From contig JAIOZK010000031.1 in NCBI GenBank assembly GCA_021740625.1, positions 1-42,864 on the forward strand: a stretch of DNA of 42,864 bases. The letters are read 5' to 3'. Below are positions 15,370 to 21,685 of this stretch, piece by piece. The stretch comes from Bacteroidales bacterium. GTDB taxonomy: Bacteria; Bacteroidota; Bacteroidia; Bacteroidales; JAIOZK01. The number at the start of each line of letters is the position of its first letter. The stretch's first letter is position 1. Under the pieces are notes generated by a model. The model searched no databases. It was given only the letters and a program-made list of their open reading frames with translations, and was not told where the DNA came from. The translations under genes and the position numbers were made by a program.

Positions 15370-16107
15370 TTGCTAATTGAACAGAAGGTCAAAGACTTAT
15401 TAATTGATTTTGGCCCGCCAAGAAAGAATGTAAGACCTTATTACCCTTTTATTAGGCTTGCAAATGATAATATTTGGAGCTTTAATAAATCAGAGTATAT
15501 TGATACTAAAAGAGATTATCCAGGTAAGTATCTCATTGAAAACAATATAAGTGCTGGATTCAATTCTTTTGTACTGGTATCACTTAAACAGAATCCTGGA
15601 CTTATAAAGAGGCTTGTAGATTTTATTCTTAATAATAATTTTCCTGCCTCTCTTCATCCGGATATTTTAAGATCGACAGGATTATCAGAATTTTTACCGA
15701 AGTCTGGTCAAATAAGAGATCCTAACTTTAGAGAGAAAATTCTTGTGGCATATAATTTCAAATGTGCAATTTGTGATTATGCGGTACGGATTAAAAATCA
15801 ATTAGTCGGGGTTGAGGCTGCACATATTAAATGGCATCAGGCAGGGGGGCCAAGTGAAATAATTAATGGCATTGCTCTTTGCTCTTTACATCACAAACTT
15901 TTTGATTCGGGTGCTTTTACTATAAATGATGGCTTTAAAATAATCGTATCCGAGATGGTCAATGGTAGCGGTTCAGAAGAAATCCTATATAGATATGATA
16001 ATAAGGAAATAAATTATCCAAGAAATAAAAAATATTTTCCTGACGATAATTTCCTTGAATGGCATGTTTGTGAAGTTTTTAAAGATTATAAGCTATTAAA
16101 AAAGTGA
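15370..16107 (+). pseudogene. SBD-HNH endonuclease (phosphorothioated-DNA-dependent restriction type), apparently 5'-truncated
   Basis: A 245-residue reading frame similar to McrA-like enzymes that cleave phosphorothioate-modified DNA. Residues 1-~110 resemble the second part of the sulfur-binding domain (FGPPRKNVRPYYPFIRL, SAGFNSFVLVSL, FPASLHPDIL). Residues ~118-235 are the HNH nuclease: C132-x2-C135, EAAH152, N166 and C171SLHH175. Family proteins normally have some 40 more residues before FGPPR, including a KPLLLL-like stretch. Here the frame is closed by a stop at 15352 and has only TTG or later starts, with no good ribosome site. The gene is visibly richer in A+T than its neighbours, suggesting transfer. 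No dnd genes are nearby. The nuclease motifs are intact, so a shortened active protein cannot be excluded. Confidence 0.7.
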
Positions 16108-16391: not shown

Positions 16392-17462
16392 ATGATGAAG
16401 TCCTTAAAAATGGGGAATTTGAATATTCCTCTTCCCATCATCCAGGGCGGCATGGGTGTTGGTGTTTCGCTTTCCGGCCTTGCCGCAGCCGTTGCCAATG
16501 AAGGTGGTGTTGGTGTTATTTCCAGCGCCGGCCTGGGTTTACTTTATAAAAAAACCGGCAGAGACTACCTGGAATCAAGCATACAGGGTTTAAAAGAAGA
16601 ATTGCAAAAGGCACGCAAATTAAGCCTGGGTGTTATCGGTGTGAATGTTATGGTTGCCATGACAAATTTCGCGGATATGGTGAAAACGGCCATTGCCGAG
16701 AAAGCCGACATCATCTTCAGCGGGGCTGGTTTACCTTTGGATTTGCCTTCATTTCTCACCAAAGAAAGCAAAACAAAGCTGGTCCCCATTGTCTCATCTG
16801 AGAGAGCCACCCGCATCATTTGTGAGAAATGGAAAAAAAATTATGACTATCTCCCGGATGCCATTGTTGTGGAGGGTCCCAAAGCCGGTGGCCACCTTGG
16901 TTTTAAAGATAATCAGATCGATGATGAGCATTATTCTCTCGAACAGATTGTCCCCAAGGTTATTACTGCTGTTAAAATATTTGAGGACTCTTACAGTGTA
17001 AAAATACCGGTTATTGCTGCCGGCGGAATATATACCGGACAGAATATCTATGATATTTTAAAACTGGGCTCTTCAGGGGTTCAACTGGGAACACGTTTTG
17101 TAACCACGACCGAATGTGATGCCTCCGATGCCTTCAAGGCAACATACATCAATGCAAAAGCCGAGGATGTTAAGATTATAAACAGCCCGGTGGGCATGCC
17201 GGGCAGAGCCATCAGCAATGCTTTTATCGATAAGGTGAAGCTTGGTTACAAGCATCCGATCCGCTGTCCTTTCAAATGTATTAAGACCTGCGATATATCT
17301 TCAAGTCCGTATTGTATCATCAAAGCCCTTTTCAGCGCTTTCAAAGGAAAATTCGATCATGGTTATGCTTTCGCCGGTACCAATGCCTACCTGGCCAGCA
17401 AAATCATTTCTGTTAAACAGACTTTTCAGGATATCCTTGATGAATACGGCTTGAGTAAGTAA
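16392..17462 (+). CDS. Nitronate monooxygenase-like NAD(P)H-dependent flavoprotein
   Basis: A 356-residue cytoplasmic TIM-barrel flavoprotein of the 2-nitropropane dioxygenase / FabK superfamily. The FMN-binding start PIIQGGMGVGVSLSGLAAAVA, the GPKAGGHLGF segment holding the family's active-site histidine, and the phosphate-binding AAGGIYTGQNI...GSSGVQLGTRF are all present. The C-terminal region has a cysteine-rich patch, CPFKCIKTCDISSSPYC (~residues 297-313), seen in one branch of the family; it could bind metal. The reaction is uncertain: nitronate oxidation, enoyl reduction or another flavin chemistry. It is followed after 97 bp by the acyltransferase gene. The ATG at 16392 has a second ATG one codon later. 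Confidence 0.88.
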   Translation: MMKSLKMGNLNIPLPIIQGGMGVGVSLSGLAAAVANEGGVGVISSAGLGLLYKKTGRDYLESSIQGLKEELQKARKLSLGVIGVNVMVAMTNFADMVKTAIAEKADIIFSGAGLPLDLPSFLTKESKTKLVPIVSSERATRIICEKWKKNYDYLPDAIVVEGPKAGGHLGFKDNQIDDEHYSLEQIVPKVITAVKIFEDSYSVKIPVIAAGGIYTGQNIYDILKLGSSGVQLGTRFVTTTECDASDAFKATYINAKAEDVKIINSPVGMPGRAISNAFIDKVKLGYKHPIRCPFKCIKTCDISSSPYCIIKALFSAFKGKFDHGYAFAGTNAYLASKIISVKQTFQDILDEYGLSK

Positions 17463-17559
17463 TGTTTTGTGCCCAAAGTCCGAGTGATTTTTTAAATGGT
17501 GTTTTTATAAACATGCCGGTCTCATCGAATAATATTATTTTTGAAAAGAGGCAGCTATT

Positions 17560-18879
17560 GTGAGTAATTTTAGAAATTTGAAAAACGGTAAACAAAAAGG
17601 TGCAGTATCTGAAAAATTTTGGCTTGTCCTTGATAATGCTGCCAAGATTTTTCCGGCGCTTTTAAACGAGGAGTTTACCGCCGTGTTCCGGCTGAGTGCA
17701 GTATTAAAACATCCTGTCCGGATCCATGCCCTTTTTAAAGCTGTTGCGCTCATCGAGAAACGTTTTCCCTATTACAAAGTGCAGCTCAAGAAAGGATTTT
17801 TCTGGTACTACCTTGAGCATATCCCGCTCAAATTTAATGTTGAAGTTGACAATAAAAGACCCTGCCGGAGCTTTTCCAGAGACTCACTCATGATACGCAT
17901 TCTGGTTTCGGGGAACAAAATAAACCTTGAGTTTTCGCATATTTTAACGGATGGAAGCGGTGCATTTGAGTTTTTAAAAAGCATTCTTCTTTTATATTCC
18001 AAAGAAACCGGCCATGAAATCCCTTCATCTTTTGAATATTTAAAACCGGCCGATCCTATTTCAGAAGAAGAATACGAAGATGCATACAAAAGATATTTCA
18101 AAGAGAAGATTCCTCCCATGGTGAAAAAATCAAAAGCATTTCACCTTCCCTTCCCCTTGAAGTCCAAACCTCGTTTTGAAATCATGAATGCCCTGGTTTC
18201 TGTTAAGGACATAAAGTCAAAAGCAAAGGAAAAGAATGTAAGCATAAACGATTATCTTGTTTCGGTATATTTGTTCGTTCTTCAGGAAATTAATAAAGAA
18301 CTGAAGGATACAAAAAAGACAAAGAGCAAAAAGTGTATCCGCATTCAGGTTCCTGCTGATATGAGAAAGATTTTCCCATCCAAAACGATGCGCAATTTTT
18401 CTCTGTTTGTGATGCCTGAAATTGATCTCAGGCTTGGGGAGTATTCCTTCGATGAAATTGTAAAGTTTGTTTATCACCAGATACGTCTCGAAACAGATGA
18501 AAAGCTTATCAATAAAACCATATCAAGAAATGTTGGCGGGGAGAAAAAAATATATGTCAAGAGCATGCCTTTGTTTCTTAAAAGTCTTACCCTCAGGCTT
18601 AAATACTATTCCCTGGGAGCAAATCAATACAGTGGTGTGCTCACAAACCTGGGAATGGTGAAACTACCCCCTGAAACAGAAAACCTGATCGATCATTTTG
18701 TTTTTACTCCACCGCCACCCAATAAATTGCTGAAAGTAAGTTGCGGAATCATCGGATTTGATGATAAATTGCTAATCAGTTTTGGCAATATCAGCAAATC
18801 GAAAATGCTGGAAGACAAATTTTTTCAGTTCCTGAAAGATCAGGGAATACGGTTGTTATTCATGAACGAAAAAAAGTAA
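17560..18879 (+). CDS. Condensation-fold (alcohol acetyltransferase-like) acyltransferase
   Basis: A 439-residue protein with the CoA-dependent acyltransferase / condensation-domain fold. The catalytic motif is SH127ILTD131G, a single-His version of HHxxxDG, within LEFSHILTDGSG. PVRIHALFKAVALIEKRFP and SINDYLVSVYLFVL (the second-lobe floor helix) support the assignment. Such proteins transfer an acyl group from CoA or a carrier to an alcohol or amine. No signal peptide is present. The start is GTG at 17560, preceded by AGAGG about 9 bases upstream. The stop is 3 bases before the next start, so it is co-transcribed with the zinc-ribbon membrane protein. The pairing with a DUF6320-like protein is one I recall from other genomes. 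The substrate is unknown. Confidence 0.75.
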   Translation: MSNFRNLKNGKQKGAVSEKFWLVLDNAAKIFPALLNEEFTAVFRLSAVLKHPVRIHALFKAVALIEKRFPYYKVQLKKGFFWYYLEHIPLKFNVEVDNKRPCRSFSRDSLMIRILVSGNKINLEFSHILTDGSGAFEFLKSILLLYSKETGHEIPSSFEYLKPADPISEEEYEDAYKRYFKEKIPPMVKKSKAFHLPFPLKSKPRFEIMNALVSVKDIKSKAKEKNVSINDYLVSVYLFVLQEINKELKDTKKTKSKKCIRIQVPADMRKIFPSKTMRNFSLFVMPEIDLRLGEYSFDEIVKFVYHQIRLETDEKLINKTISRNVGGEKKIYVKSMPLFLKSLTLRLKYYSLGANQYSGVLTNLGMVKLPPETENLIDHFVFTPPPPNKLLKVSCGIIGFDDKLLISFGNISKSKMLEDKFFQFLKDQGIRLLFMNEKK

Positions 18880-18882
18880 ACA

Positions 18883-19608
18883 ATGAAAATTTGTCCAAAT
18901 TGCGGTGTTGAACTTGAAGGGAACACAAACTTTTGCCCCTTATGTGGCGAAGCCATCATTGATGAAAATACGGAGAATCCGGAGTATTTGAAACTGAGAA
19001 AGAAAGAACAACAGGAAAAGGTGTTGAACGCTTTCCAGAAACTGAGCGGCTTCCAGAAGAGAAAACTCTTTTGGGAAATATCAGGGATATTGCTATTTTC
19101 AGGTATTCTGATCACCCTGATCATTGACCTGCTTGAGGATAACAATCTTTCGTGGTCAAAATATACAGTTACAATATGTGCCATTGTTTTCATTAACATA
19201 TCACTGTTTTCATTCTTATATAAAAGGATTTATTTGCTATTCCTGGGTAGCTTTTTAGCCTCCTCCGTTCTTTTGATTCTTCTTGATATGTTTAACAACA
19301 ATATCGGCTGGGGAAAAAAATTCGGTATCCCTTTGCTTTTTGTCGCCTACCTGATTATTCTGGGACTTATTTTAATGATAAGAAGATCCCGGGAGAAGGA
19401 ACTAAACCTGATCACCTATTCCCTGATCGCTTCGGGTTTGCTCAGTATTTGTATTGAAGCCATGATCTCACTTTATAATAATAAAGGCCTGGAACTGAGC
19501 TGGAGCCTGATCGTGATCATCTGTGTATTACCGGTTTCTTCATTGCTGCTTTTTATTCAGCACAGGCTAAAGAGAGGATTTGAGCTGAAAAGATTCTTTC
19601 ATATCTGA
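18883..19608 (+). CDS. Zinc-ribbon membrane protein (DUF6320-like)
   Basis: A 241-residue protein. The N-terminus is a rubredoxin-like zinc ribbon, C4-x2-C7...C18-x2-C21 (MKICPNCGVELE, FCPLCGEAII). A charged linker follows (~30-65), then six hydrophobic segments from about residue 66 to 230. The architecture fits the DUF6320 family that accompanies alcohol acetyltransferase-like genes; the function is unknown. It starts 3 bases after the acyltransferase stop, so they form one operon. A possibility is a membrane partner that recruits or senses for the acyltransferase; this is inference. The stop codon lies inside the terminator hairpin at 19596-19611. Confidence 0.75.
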   Translation: MKICPNCGVELEGNTNFCPLCGEAIIDENTENPEYLKLRKKEQQEKVLNAFQKLSGFQKRKLFWEISGILLFSGILITLIIDLLEDNNLSWSKYTVTICAIVFINISLFSFLYKRIYLLFLGSFLASSVLLILLDMFNNNIGWGKKFGIPLLFVAYLIILGLILMIRRSREKELNLITYSLIASGLLSICIEAMISLYNNKGLELSWSLIVIICVLPVSSLLLFIQHRLKRGFELKRFFHI

Positions 19609-19620
19609 AAGATTTTTTAT
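19596..19620. terminator. Bidirectional terminator between convergent genes
   Basis: The perfect hairpin CTTTCA-TATC-TGAAAG (19596-19611) is followed on the plus strand by ATTTTTTAT. On the minus strand it is followed by AATCTTTT. It overlaps the stop codon of the zinc-ribbon gene and lies just beyond the end of the CPBP gene, so it can serve both. The stem is short (6 bp). Confidence 0.6.
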
Positions 19621-20258
19621 TGAAAAATCAACAACAACTCATTCCACAAATCTCTTTGTAATACAAAAAATAAAAAAAAGCCGGAAGCCCACCCGTGATA
19701 TAGGCCGAGTGACCATAAATTGTTGTATTTAAAATAAGCGTGAATAAAGATTAATTCCATTAGCAAAACGTAAATCATCAAAGAAATATCCGGATAATGA
19801 ACAAGTGCAAATAGCAAACTCACCATGAGGTTCACCTGAAAATCAGTTATCTTTCCCTTGACAAGTGTTCTTAAATTACCGGCAACCAGCCCGGCGACAA
19901 TAAACTGCTGGGTAAGGCCCCAAACGGGATATAGAATGAGGATCGGAAGAATATGCCAGTTGAGGATGGAGGTATTTGTAAGGGAAGCATACAACAAAGA
20001 TGCTGTAATTACTATTATGCCAAATGGCAAGAGATAAAGCAATGATTTTTTGAAATACTGAAGATTAAATCCCCACTTATTAAGTACCAAAGGATCTGAT
20101 TTATATCTCCGGAAAATGAAAAAAAACCAAAAAACAAGAGCAGCAGTAATATAAAAAATTGAGAAACCGGGTTTGCCAGCTACAGCAAACTTCAACAAAA
20201 CAGTTAGCAGGACTGCTATGATGATATTCCATTTTCTTTTATCAGGATGCTGTTTCAC
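19617..20258 (-). CDS. CPBP-family membrane protein with degenerate protease motif
   Basis: A 213-residue polytopic membrane protein of the CPBP (Abi) fold, related to type II CAAX prenyl endopeptidases. Six or seven hydrophobic segments are seen. Motif 1, normally EExxxR, is Q117-Q118-F-I-V-A122. Motifs 2 and 3 keep their histidines: FALVH154YP and YH188GWASG. Loss of both glutamates and the arginine argues against normal glutamate-dependent proteolysis. The protein might be a binding or scaffold member of the family or work with an altered mechanism. It converges on the zinc-ribbon operon with an 8-base gap. The 284-bp upstream gap (20259-20542), shared with the divergent dehydrogenase gene, has no clear feature. 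Confidence 0.75.
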   Translation of the reverse strand: MKQHPDKRKWNIIIAVLLTVLLKFAVAGKPGFSIFYITAALVFWFFFIFRRYKSDPLVLNKWGFNLQYFKKSLLYLLPFGIIVITASLLYASLTNTSILNWHILPILILYPVWGLTQQFIVAGLVAGNLRTLVKGKITDFQVNLMVSLLFALVHYPDISLMIYVLLMELIFIHAYFKYNNLWSLGLYHGWASGFFLFFVLQRDLWNELLLIFQ

Positions 20259-20542: not shown

Positions 20543-21685
20543 ATGCAAAAGCTAAAATTTGGTGTTATCGGCACATCCAGAAAAGCCGATGAGCGACGTT
20601 TACCAATCCATACCGATCATTTGTCACGTCTCCCGGAGCTTATTCGCCGCCAACTGATATTTGAAAAGGGTTACGGGTTTTCACTTGGGGTTTCCGATGA
20701 TGAGATCGCCTCAATAACCGGCGGGGTGGCCTCACGCCATGAACTACTGGCAGGACTTGGAAATGTCATCATACCCAAACCGGTGGTGGCTGATCTACAG
20801 GAGCTGCGTGAAGGTGGGATCCTTTGGGGCTGGCCGCATTGTGTGCAACAGGAGTCAATCACACAAACCGCCATCGACCGCAAACAAACACTTATTGCCT
20901 TCGAGGATATGTTCGCATGGGATCCACAAGGAAATGCAGGACGCCATACCTTTTATAAAAATAATGAACTGGCAGGTTATTGCGCAGTTTTACATGCTCT
21001 CCAGCTTAAAGGCATTGACGGCCATTACGGCGATCAGCGTAAATGTATAATTTTCAGCTTTGGCACGGTAAGTCGTGGTGCGATTTATGCTCTCAAAGCA
21101 AGGGGTTTCAGGGACATTACCATAATTATTCAAAGGCCTGATTATGAGGTGCGCGAAGAAATTCTGGATGTACATTATGTTCGTTTAAGAAAGGGAAAAA
21201 AAGGAGAGTCACGCCATATCATTGTGGAGCATGATACCACCGAGCGGCCCCTGGCAGAGCTGATCAGCGAATCCGATATTATCATCAACGGAATATTTCA
21301 GAATCCGGACAAACCCATCATCTTCGTTAAAGAAAATGAAAAACATATTTTAAAACCGGGTTGCCTGATCATTGACGTTAGTTGTGATGAAGGAATGGGC
21401 TTTTATTTTGCAAAGCCGACTACATTTAAAAATCCCATGCTGACTTTTGACAAAATTGATTATTATGGTGTCGATCATACCCCGAGTTATTTATGGGAAA
21501 GTGCCACCAGGTCGATCTCAGCTTCTCTTATCCAGTACTTGCCTGCATTGATTGAAGGGCCCGAAAGTTGGGAACGCAATGCAAGTTTGTGCAATGCAAT
21601 AAACATTGATAAAGGAGTGATCAGAAAAGTTTCAGTATTATCATTTCAAAATCGACAACCAACCTATCCCCATGCTATAAATTAA
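20543..21685 (+). CDS. N5-(carboxyethyl)ornithine synthase-like dehydrogenase (AlaDH/PNT family)
   Basis: A 380-residue cytoplasmic oxidoreductase of the alanine dehydrogenase / transhydrogenase fold. It follows the Lactococcus CeoS pattern closely: ERRLPIHTDHL at the N-terminus, FEKGYGFSLGVSDDEI, LREGGILWGWPH, AGYCAVLHAL before the Rossmann segment (IIFSFGTVSRGAIYAL), DIIINGIFQNPDKPI, and LIIDVSCDEGMGF with HTPSYLWESATRSIS near the end. CeoS condenses pyruvate with the ornithine side chain using NADPH. At 380 residues this protein is about 65 longer than my memory of CeoS, with extra residues in the middle, so substrate identity is tentative. It converges on the outer-membrane barrel gene with a 4-base gap. 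Confidence 0.75.
   Translation: MQKLKFGVIGTSRKADERRLPIHTDHLSRLPELIRRQLIFEKGYGFSLGVSDDEIASITGGVASRHELLAGLGNVIIPKPVVADLQELREGGILWGWPHCVQQESITQTAIDRKQTLIAFEDMFAWDPQGNAGRHTFYKNNELAGYCAVLHALQLKGIDGHYGDQRKCIIFSFGTVSRGAIYALKARGFRDITIIIQRPDYEVREEILDVHYVRLRKGKKGESRHIIVEHDTTERPLAELISESDIIINGIFQNPDKPIIFVKENEKHILKPGCLIIDVSCDEGMGFYFAKPTTFKNPMLTFDKIDYYGVDHTPSYLWESATRSISASLIQYLPALIEGPESWERNASLCNAINIDKGVIRKVSVLSFQNRQPTYPHAIN

Follow-up and report, generated by a model that had tools for sequence, protein, structure and literature searches.

A conserved pair of a probable acyltransferase and a DUF6320 membrane protein in a Bacteroidales genome, and its FabX/UfaA-type neighbour

Two adjacent genes of a Bacteroidales bacterium encode a condensation-fold acyltransferase (AT), a probable O-acyltransferase, and a membrane protein of the DUF6320 family, and the pairing of these two proteins in other genomes is far beyond chance. 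The genes lie in contig JAIOZK010000031.1 of assembly GCA_021740625.1, which was analysed as one stretch of 42,864 nucleotides (the window) and is contig 52 of the 52 contigs of a 4.0-Mb host genome. A preliminary description of positions 16392-19608 had joined AT, the membrane protein and an upstream flavoprotein into a single set acting in an undescribed lipid or ester modification pathway. The three open reading frames (ORFs) proved to be real and are all on the forward strand. The idea of an undescribed, probably ester-type system at the locus was upheld, as the pair is conserved and such a role fits the fold and the catalytic motif of AT. The set itself was kept in part: AT and DUF6320 form a conserved, uncharacterised module, and the flavoprotein is not included in it, being most likely a mere neighbour that was wrongly grouped with the pair. 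The three genes are:

16392-17462, forward strand: FabX/UfaA-type flavoprotein of the nitronate monooxygenase (NMO) fold, 356 amino acids, ATG start
17560-18879, forward strand: acyltransferase (AT) of the condensation fold, probable O-acyltransferase, 439 amino acids, GTG start
18883-19608, forward strand: DUF6320 membrane protein, 241 amino acids, ATG start

The acyltransferase and DUF6320 pair

Relatives of AT were collected in one genome collection scan, in which the closest named relatives of the window protein were metagenome-assembled genomes (MAGs) of Bacteroidales. The best 80 of 130 relatives were used as a locus set, 31 of them from Bacteroidota and 49 from outside that phylum. In 75 of the 80 loci DUF6320 was encoded directly downstream of AT and in the same direction, these calls being matches to separate downstream ORFs. 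The other five comprised two gene fusions, one locus without DUF6320 and two loci at a contig end. The two genes, exactly 3 bases apart in the window, were separated by -60 to +20 bases in 66 of the 75 pairs when automatic ORF starts were used, and the nine outside this range are partly explained by wrong starts. The fused proteins, from a Clostridium sp. (L095) and a Clostridia MAG (L100), are 618 and 627 amino acids long, and in both Pfam places DUF6320 C-terminally (182 and 164 bits). Judged by record title, the pair is carried by Bacteroidota, Clostridia, Spirochaetes, Cloacimonadota, Lentisphaeria, Erysipelotrichaceae and others. Two loci with the record title Brachyspira murdochii (L057 and L058) are on two contigs of one MAG and have identical AT-DUF6320 coordinates and scores, possibly reflecting a contig duplicated in the assembly.

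To the same pairing an order-wide sample of 198 genomes was also applied, with AT counted at E < 1e-100 and DUF6320 above the Pfam cut-off. Both proteins were found in the same 12 genomes and were adjacent in all 12. At E <= 0.001, AT was found in 15 genomes, three of which hold distant relatives, and DUF6320 in 17. A draw from the phylum gave DUF6320 above cut-off in one of 296 genomes only, the window's own. The pair is sporadic (12/198 in the order sample, and DUF6320 in 1/296 of the phylum draw).

The single locus without DUF6320 (L038:9740-11137, record titled Chitinophaga sp. GbtcB8) encodes an AT homologue that is absent from the 42-row alignment of the family, and a search of its genome with the DUF6320 family alignment found no such protein. 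Weak matches of plain AT proteins, that of L038 included, to an iterated DUF6320 profile are artefacts of a profile that had absorbed fused proteins. The AT of L038 ends in FKRIFHT, as if it had taken over the tail of a DUF6320 protein whose membrane part was lost, and its motif reads HILTDA instead of HxxxDG. No DUF6320-like tail was found on AT in the other 10 AT-bearing genomes of the genus (0/10). Because the tail is unique in the genus and the motif is altered, this AT may be a decaying gene.

The account of the third gene product as a zinc-ribbon membrane protein with six spans was confirmed. The window protein exceeds the curated cut-offs of DUF6320 (PF19845; 41.3 bits, cut-off 29.9), which Pfam lists as a family of unknown function, and of Zn_Ribbon_1 (27.9 bits, cut-off 25), with the N-terminal ribbon at C4, C7, C18 and C21. 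Six hydrophobic spans were seen on a simple hydrophobicity scale, and the helices of a structural model fit them. The protein modelled alone had a predicted local distance difference test score (pLDDT) of 87.4 and a predicted template modelling score (pTM) of 0.71, with the tail below 60. A fold search with this model gave no Foldseek match at E <= 0.001 and VIA Z scores of at most 7.8, within the chance range for helical bundles, which is no proof of a new fold. Among 72 DUF6320 sequences the ribbon cysteines are kept in 88%, and W91, W143 and P150 in at least 95%. The window protein ends in KRFFHI and both fused proteins end in RRFHI; a penultimate histidine is present in 63 of 71 complete proteins, in two of the 63 by accident of a longer tail. 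The tail is likely to be a docking element on AT. A literature search found no paper naming DUF6320 or PF19845; for COG4908 it returned one Mycobacterium comparison only, and the listings on alcohol acetyltransferase show nothing on the pair.

The SHILTDG sequence attributed to AT is present, with H127 and D131-G132 forming an HxxxDG motif; these three residues and 14 others are invariant in the 42 aligned members. The condensation fold also ascribed to it was seen in a model of the fused homologue L095 (mean pLDDT 87.7, pTM 0.84), from which it extends to the window AT by homology. The first 415 residues of this model were compared with known structures and matched AzeD (Z 30.2, 3.2 Å, 374 residues aligned), PapA5 (Z 25.1, 3.8 Å, 348 aligned) and wax synthase/diacylglycerol acyltransferase (Z 22.5, 4.0 Å, 313 aligned), as well as condensation domains and a glycolipid acyltransferase, with overall Z scores of 21-30 over more than 300 residues. 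The model of the fused homologue indicates that the AT family has the condensation/PapA5/alcohol acetyltransferase (AATase) fold. The alcohol acetyltransferase family PF07247 was matched by 22 of the 42 AT homologues at E <= 1 (best 4.6e-9). Single-sequence and profile searches of PDB sequences with AT gave nothing credible. DFGWG, a motif of classical condensation-domain and BAHD enzymes, was not found in AT.

AT resembles the PF07247/PapA5/condensation superfamily in the fold of its fused homologue, in HxxxDG and in the PF07247 matches of its homologues, and differs from it in carrying the signatures LDNAAKI-P and GFFWYY and in having a membrane protein of its own, either as a separate partner or as a fused domain. 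The two signatures were not seen in three distant AT relatives from genomes without a DUF6320 match. A distant AATase-like protein in L147:2-4299 (genome G009) aligned to the AT family with an hhalign probability of 99.6; genes for an aminotransferase of class I/II and, judged by eye, a short-chain reductase come before it, an order that recalls sphingolipid synthesis, and a 7TM-HD protein comes after it.

A proposed acyl transfer at the membrane and its alternatives

We consider it somewhat probable that the core of the locus is a two-protein, membrane-bound O-acyltransferase composed of AT and DUF6320, which would esterify a lipophilic alcohol, with a hydrolase reversing the reaction in some lineages and the flavoprotein acting separately. 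This proposal builds on the pairing, the fusions, the motifs and the fold of the fused homologue. His127 of the HxxxDG motif would activate a hydroxyl on an alcohol that is lipophilic or embedded in the membrane, and AT would transfer an acyl group from coenzyme A (CoA) or acyl carrier protein (ACP) onto it at DUF6320's membrane face. The six-span DUF6320 protein would hold AT at the membrane and present or channel the lipid, and its C-terminal tail, which is charged and conserved ([K/R]-x-[F/L]-His-aliphatic-COOH), would dock on AT. The ester might be reversed by an Abhydrolase_3 hydrolase of the hormone-sensitive lipase type that lies next to AT in some other lineages. The FabX/UfaA-type flavoprotein would introduce a double bond into acyl-ACP in a separate reaction, as a neighbour of the pair only.

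The hydrolase is the commonest third neighbour, a cluster (Abhydrolase_3 in the members scanned) lying no more than two ORFs from AT in 17 of the 80 loci. Among 79 genomes of the Chitinophaga genus it adjoins AT in all 11 that bear AT, and DUF6320 adjoins AT in 10 of these 11. DUF6320 lacks the ribbon in ten loci, eight with separate and two with fused proteins, and exactly these ten make up the hydrolase-bearing loci from outside Bacteroidota. The idea that an alpha/beta hydrolase is a third partner at every locus was given less weight: its occurrence follows clades, and 10 of the 12 pair-bearing order genomes lack it.

The combination of an enzyme of the alcohol acetyltransferase kind with an alpha/beta hydrolase is shared with yeast Atf2/Say1; Atf2 belongs to PF07247, and yeast is not known to have a DUF6320-like partner. 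In a reversible acetylation cycle of this type, AT would acetylate a lipophilic alcohol, whether to export, detoxify or store it, DUF6320 would serve as a membrane platform, and the hydrolase would deacetylate the product. PMC4076087 describes such a cycle for sterols in yeast. Five neighbouring hydrolases that were scanned score above the cut-off for the steryl acetyl hydrolase family, PF10340 (48-71 bits, cut-off 21), which together with the PF07247 matches of the AT homologues favours a cycle. However, four control Abhydrolase_3 stretches from genomes without AT, which are matched stretches rather than whole proteins, score 50-63 bits on the same model. Because the controls match too, PF10340 does not discriminate, and the likeness to Atf2/Say1 is a lead and not a membership. 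On these grounds, and as ten of the 12 pair-bearing order genomes lack a close hydrolase, a cycle of the Atf2/Say1 type is unlikely here; the hydrolase is optional beside AT.

A more elaborate arrangement is also unlikely, namely an undescribed complex present in several phyla in which the DUF6320 tail docks on a cytoplasmic AT, its histidine, aliphatic residue and carboxylate lie near the active site and gate or assist the transfer, and the addition of Abhydrolase_3 makes a reversible lipid-acylation cycle.

Several observations weigh against the two-protein O-acyltransferase. AzeD, which gave the best fold match, bears the title of a dehydratase, and a fold is no proof of acyl transfer. The window AT itself matched no Pfam model at E <= 1, PF07247 included. 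The zinc ribbon is dispensable, since it is missing in the eight separate and both fused DUF6320 proteins mentioned above, and the correlation between AT and DUF6320 identities (r 0.96, 71 rows) is confounded by shared phylogeny. Just two of the 12 pair-bearing order genomes have a homologue of the hydrolase (E 1e-20), and the one in the window's genome is on another contig (G000:C18, 40% identity to that of L035). For the flavoprotein, two ACP contacts of FabX are changed, T130 to L116 and R164 to N150.

The title of AzeD and the missing DFGWG motif would also suit an AT that is a catalytic variant of the condensation fold, such as a dehydratase or an epimerase-like enzyme, or a non-catalytic scaffold. 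This is quite unlikely, as H127, D131 and G132 do not vary among the aligned members and the commonest sequence matches are to acyltransferase-type models.

The flavoprotein and its relation to the pair

The flavoprotein had been described as an NMO/FabK-type protein with a C-terminal cysteine patch. It matches the Pfam NMO (nitronate monooxygenase) model with 183 bits, and the patch was located at C292, C296, C300 and C308. Assignment as a FabK enoyl-ACP reductase was rejected on NCBIfam TIGR03151 (133.7 bits, cut-off 453.1). A more distant match in the same genome, at G000:C42:583-1281 (E 2.4e-25), may be its true FabK. The best PDB sequence matches were four sequences titled '2-nitropropane dioxygenase', including 7e1q and 9lt5 (E about 1e-69, residues 2-348), and the best FabK-type chain gave E 1.7e-28. 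The GGH histidine of the 7e1q/9lt5-type sequences falls at position 182 in the alignment numbering. We take these entries to be FabX, because the numbering of His182 is that of Helicobacter pylori FabX.

According to PMC8626469, the [4Fe-4S] ligands of H. pylori FabX are C300, C304, C308 and C320, and its GGH histidine is at 182. All four cluster cysteines were aligned with the four cysteines of the patch, and the catalytic His182 with H168. The flavin mononucleotide contacts N99, E175, Q240 and T243 correspond to N85, E161, Q231 and T234; of the ACP-contact residues, I156 is kept and K152 is replaced by arginine. The window protein is like H. pylori FabX (HP0773) in its NMO/FabK barrel and in the four cysteines of the C-terminal subdomain, and unlike it in the gap to the fourth cysteine, which is 8 rather than 12. 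Each of the 30 FabX-type order loci fetched keeps the cysteine pattern and GGH, and the flavoprotein homologues of loci L021, L029 and L049 share the cysteine pattern. From this conservation of ligands and residues across homologues, a [4Fe-4S] cluster is most likely bound by the patch. By sequence the flavoprotein belongs to the FabX/UfaA-type enzymes, a known kind that acts in the synthesis of unsaturated fatty acids, and it would probably insert a double bond into acyl-ACP.

Two relatives are NGO1024 of Neisseria gonorrhoeae, named UfaA, and HMPREF1077_RS10180, from Parabacteroides. None of the papers retrieved under the name UfaA concerns this enzyme, judged by titles and the openings of abstracts. 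HMPREF1077_RS10180 has already been recognised as the FabX of a gut Bacteroidales and expressed in B. theta (PMC11300592); the same paper cites a gonococcal homologue that is required for making unsaturated fatty acids anaerobically. PMC11091888 records a Fusobacterium homologue that keeps the key cysteines.

FabX-type proteins of the order sample were counted by hand at E < 1e-70, and flanks of up to 10 kb, often shorter, were fetched around the AT loci. The co-occurrence check proposed for the trio went against it, the flavoprotein being mostly apart from the pair: a FabX-type protein was found in 74 of the 198 order genomes, nine of which have AT and 65 of which do not. Nine of the 12 AT genomes have one, compared with 65 of the 186 others, a mild enrichment (Fisher p 0.01, phylogeny ignored). 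The gene is near the pair in three of the 12 (the window, G041 and G103), and its orientation varies, being upstream and codirectional in the window, divergent in G041, and downstream and antiparallel in G103/L021 and in L049; in L029 it is downstream of the pair, beyond a convergent gene. L021 is probably the same genome as G103. Genome G001, of the same genus as the window, has AT, DUF6320 and a CAAX-like gene without a FabX-type gene, its only NMO match being distant (E 4e-23).

Flavoprotein homologues were present in the flanks of three of the 31 Bacteroidota loci (L021, L029 and L049), none of them directly upstream and codirectional, where 0.09 would be expected on an assumed 0.75 copies per 4.2 Mb; the flanks of the 49 non-Bacteroidota loci held none. 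Three against 0.09 suggests a loose attraction or shared ancestry and gives no sign of a conserved operon, and the flavoprotein and the pair may share a loose theme. The statement that the genes lie together holds for AT and DUF6320, and the flavoprotein is set more loosely, by the following gap:

17463-17559, forward strand: gap between the flavoprotein and AT genes, 97 bases

A terminator scan of this gap found no terminator-like sequence. It contains one sigma-70-like match (9/12, at 17504-17533) and one match to TAnnTTTG, which we take to be the Bacteroidota -7 promoter motif, at 17536-17543; the latter is weak, as the window has 34 matches in total and 40 are expected. In the promoter and terminator scans, matches outnumbered those expected from shuffled sequence (13 vs 8.0 and 7 vs 3.6), and these counts are not decisive.

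An operon of the three genes was rejected on the varied arrangement, the rarity of the flavoprotein in the flanks and the lack of a FabX-type gene in G001. That all three nevertheless serve one lipid pathway, the FabX-like enzyme making an unsaturated acyl-ACP from which AT would place the acyl group on a membrane acceptor, is very unlikely on the same grounds and on its absence from the non-Bacteroidota flanks, for all that each protein plausibly belongs to lipid metabolism, the cysteine pattern is kept in every nearby homologue, and both proximity and genome co-occurrence exceed expectation.

Neighbouring genes and significance

Beyond DUF6320, on the opposite strand and convergent with it, lies one further gene:

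19617-20258, reverse strand: CAAX/Rce1-like integral membrane protein (Pfam Rce1-like 30.7 bits, cut-off 22.4)

A CAAX-like gene adjoins the AT/DUF6320 pair in nine of the 12 order genomes and in 11 of the 80 AT loci; in Bacteroidales it is often found beside the pair. Upstream of the flavoprotein, positions 15370-16107 (forward strand) encode an HNH protein of the phosphorothioated-DNA-binding restriction endonuclease family (262 bits, cut-off 180, model positions 47-284). It looks truncated at the 5' end, with in-frame stops upstream and the N-terminal part missing. The protein of 20543-21685 (forward strand) is alanine dehydrogenase/transhydrogenase-like (Pfam 49.5, cut-off 23) and is probably a dehydrogenase other than alanine dehydrogenase, its score on the NCBIfam alanine dehydrogenase model, 56.6, being far below the cut-off of 391.85.

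The reassignment of the flavoprotein to the FabX/UfaA type suggests that this Bacteroidales-like genome encodes the making of unsaturated fatty acids. For DUF6320, its near-obligate pairing or fusion with a condensation-fold AT across Bacteroidota, Clostridia, Spirochaetes and others provides a first testable role, and the pairing predicts an undescribed ester lipid or acylated alcohol.

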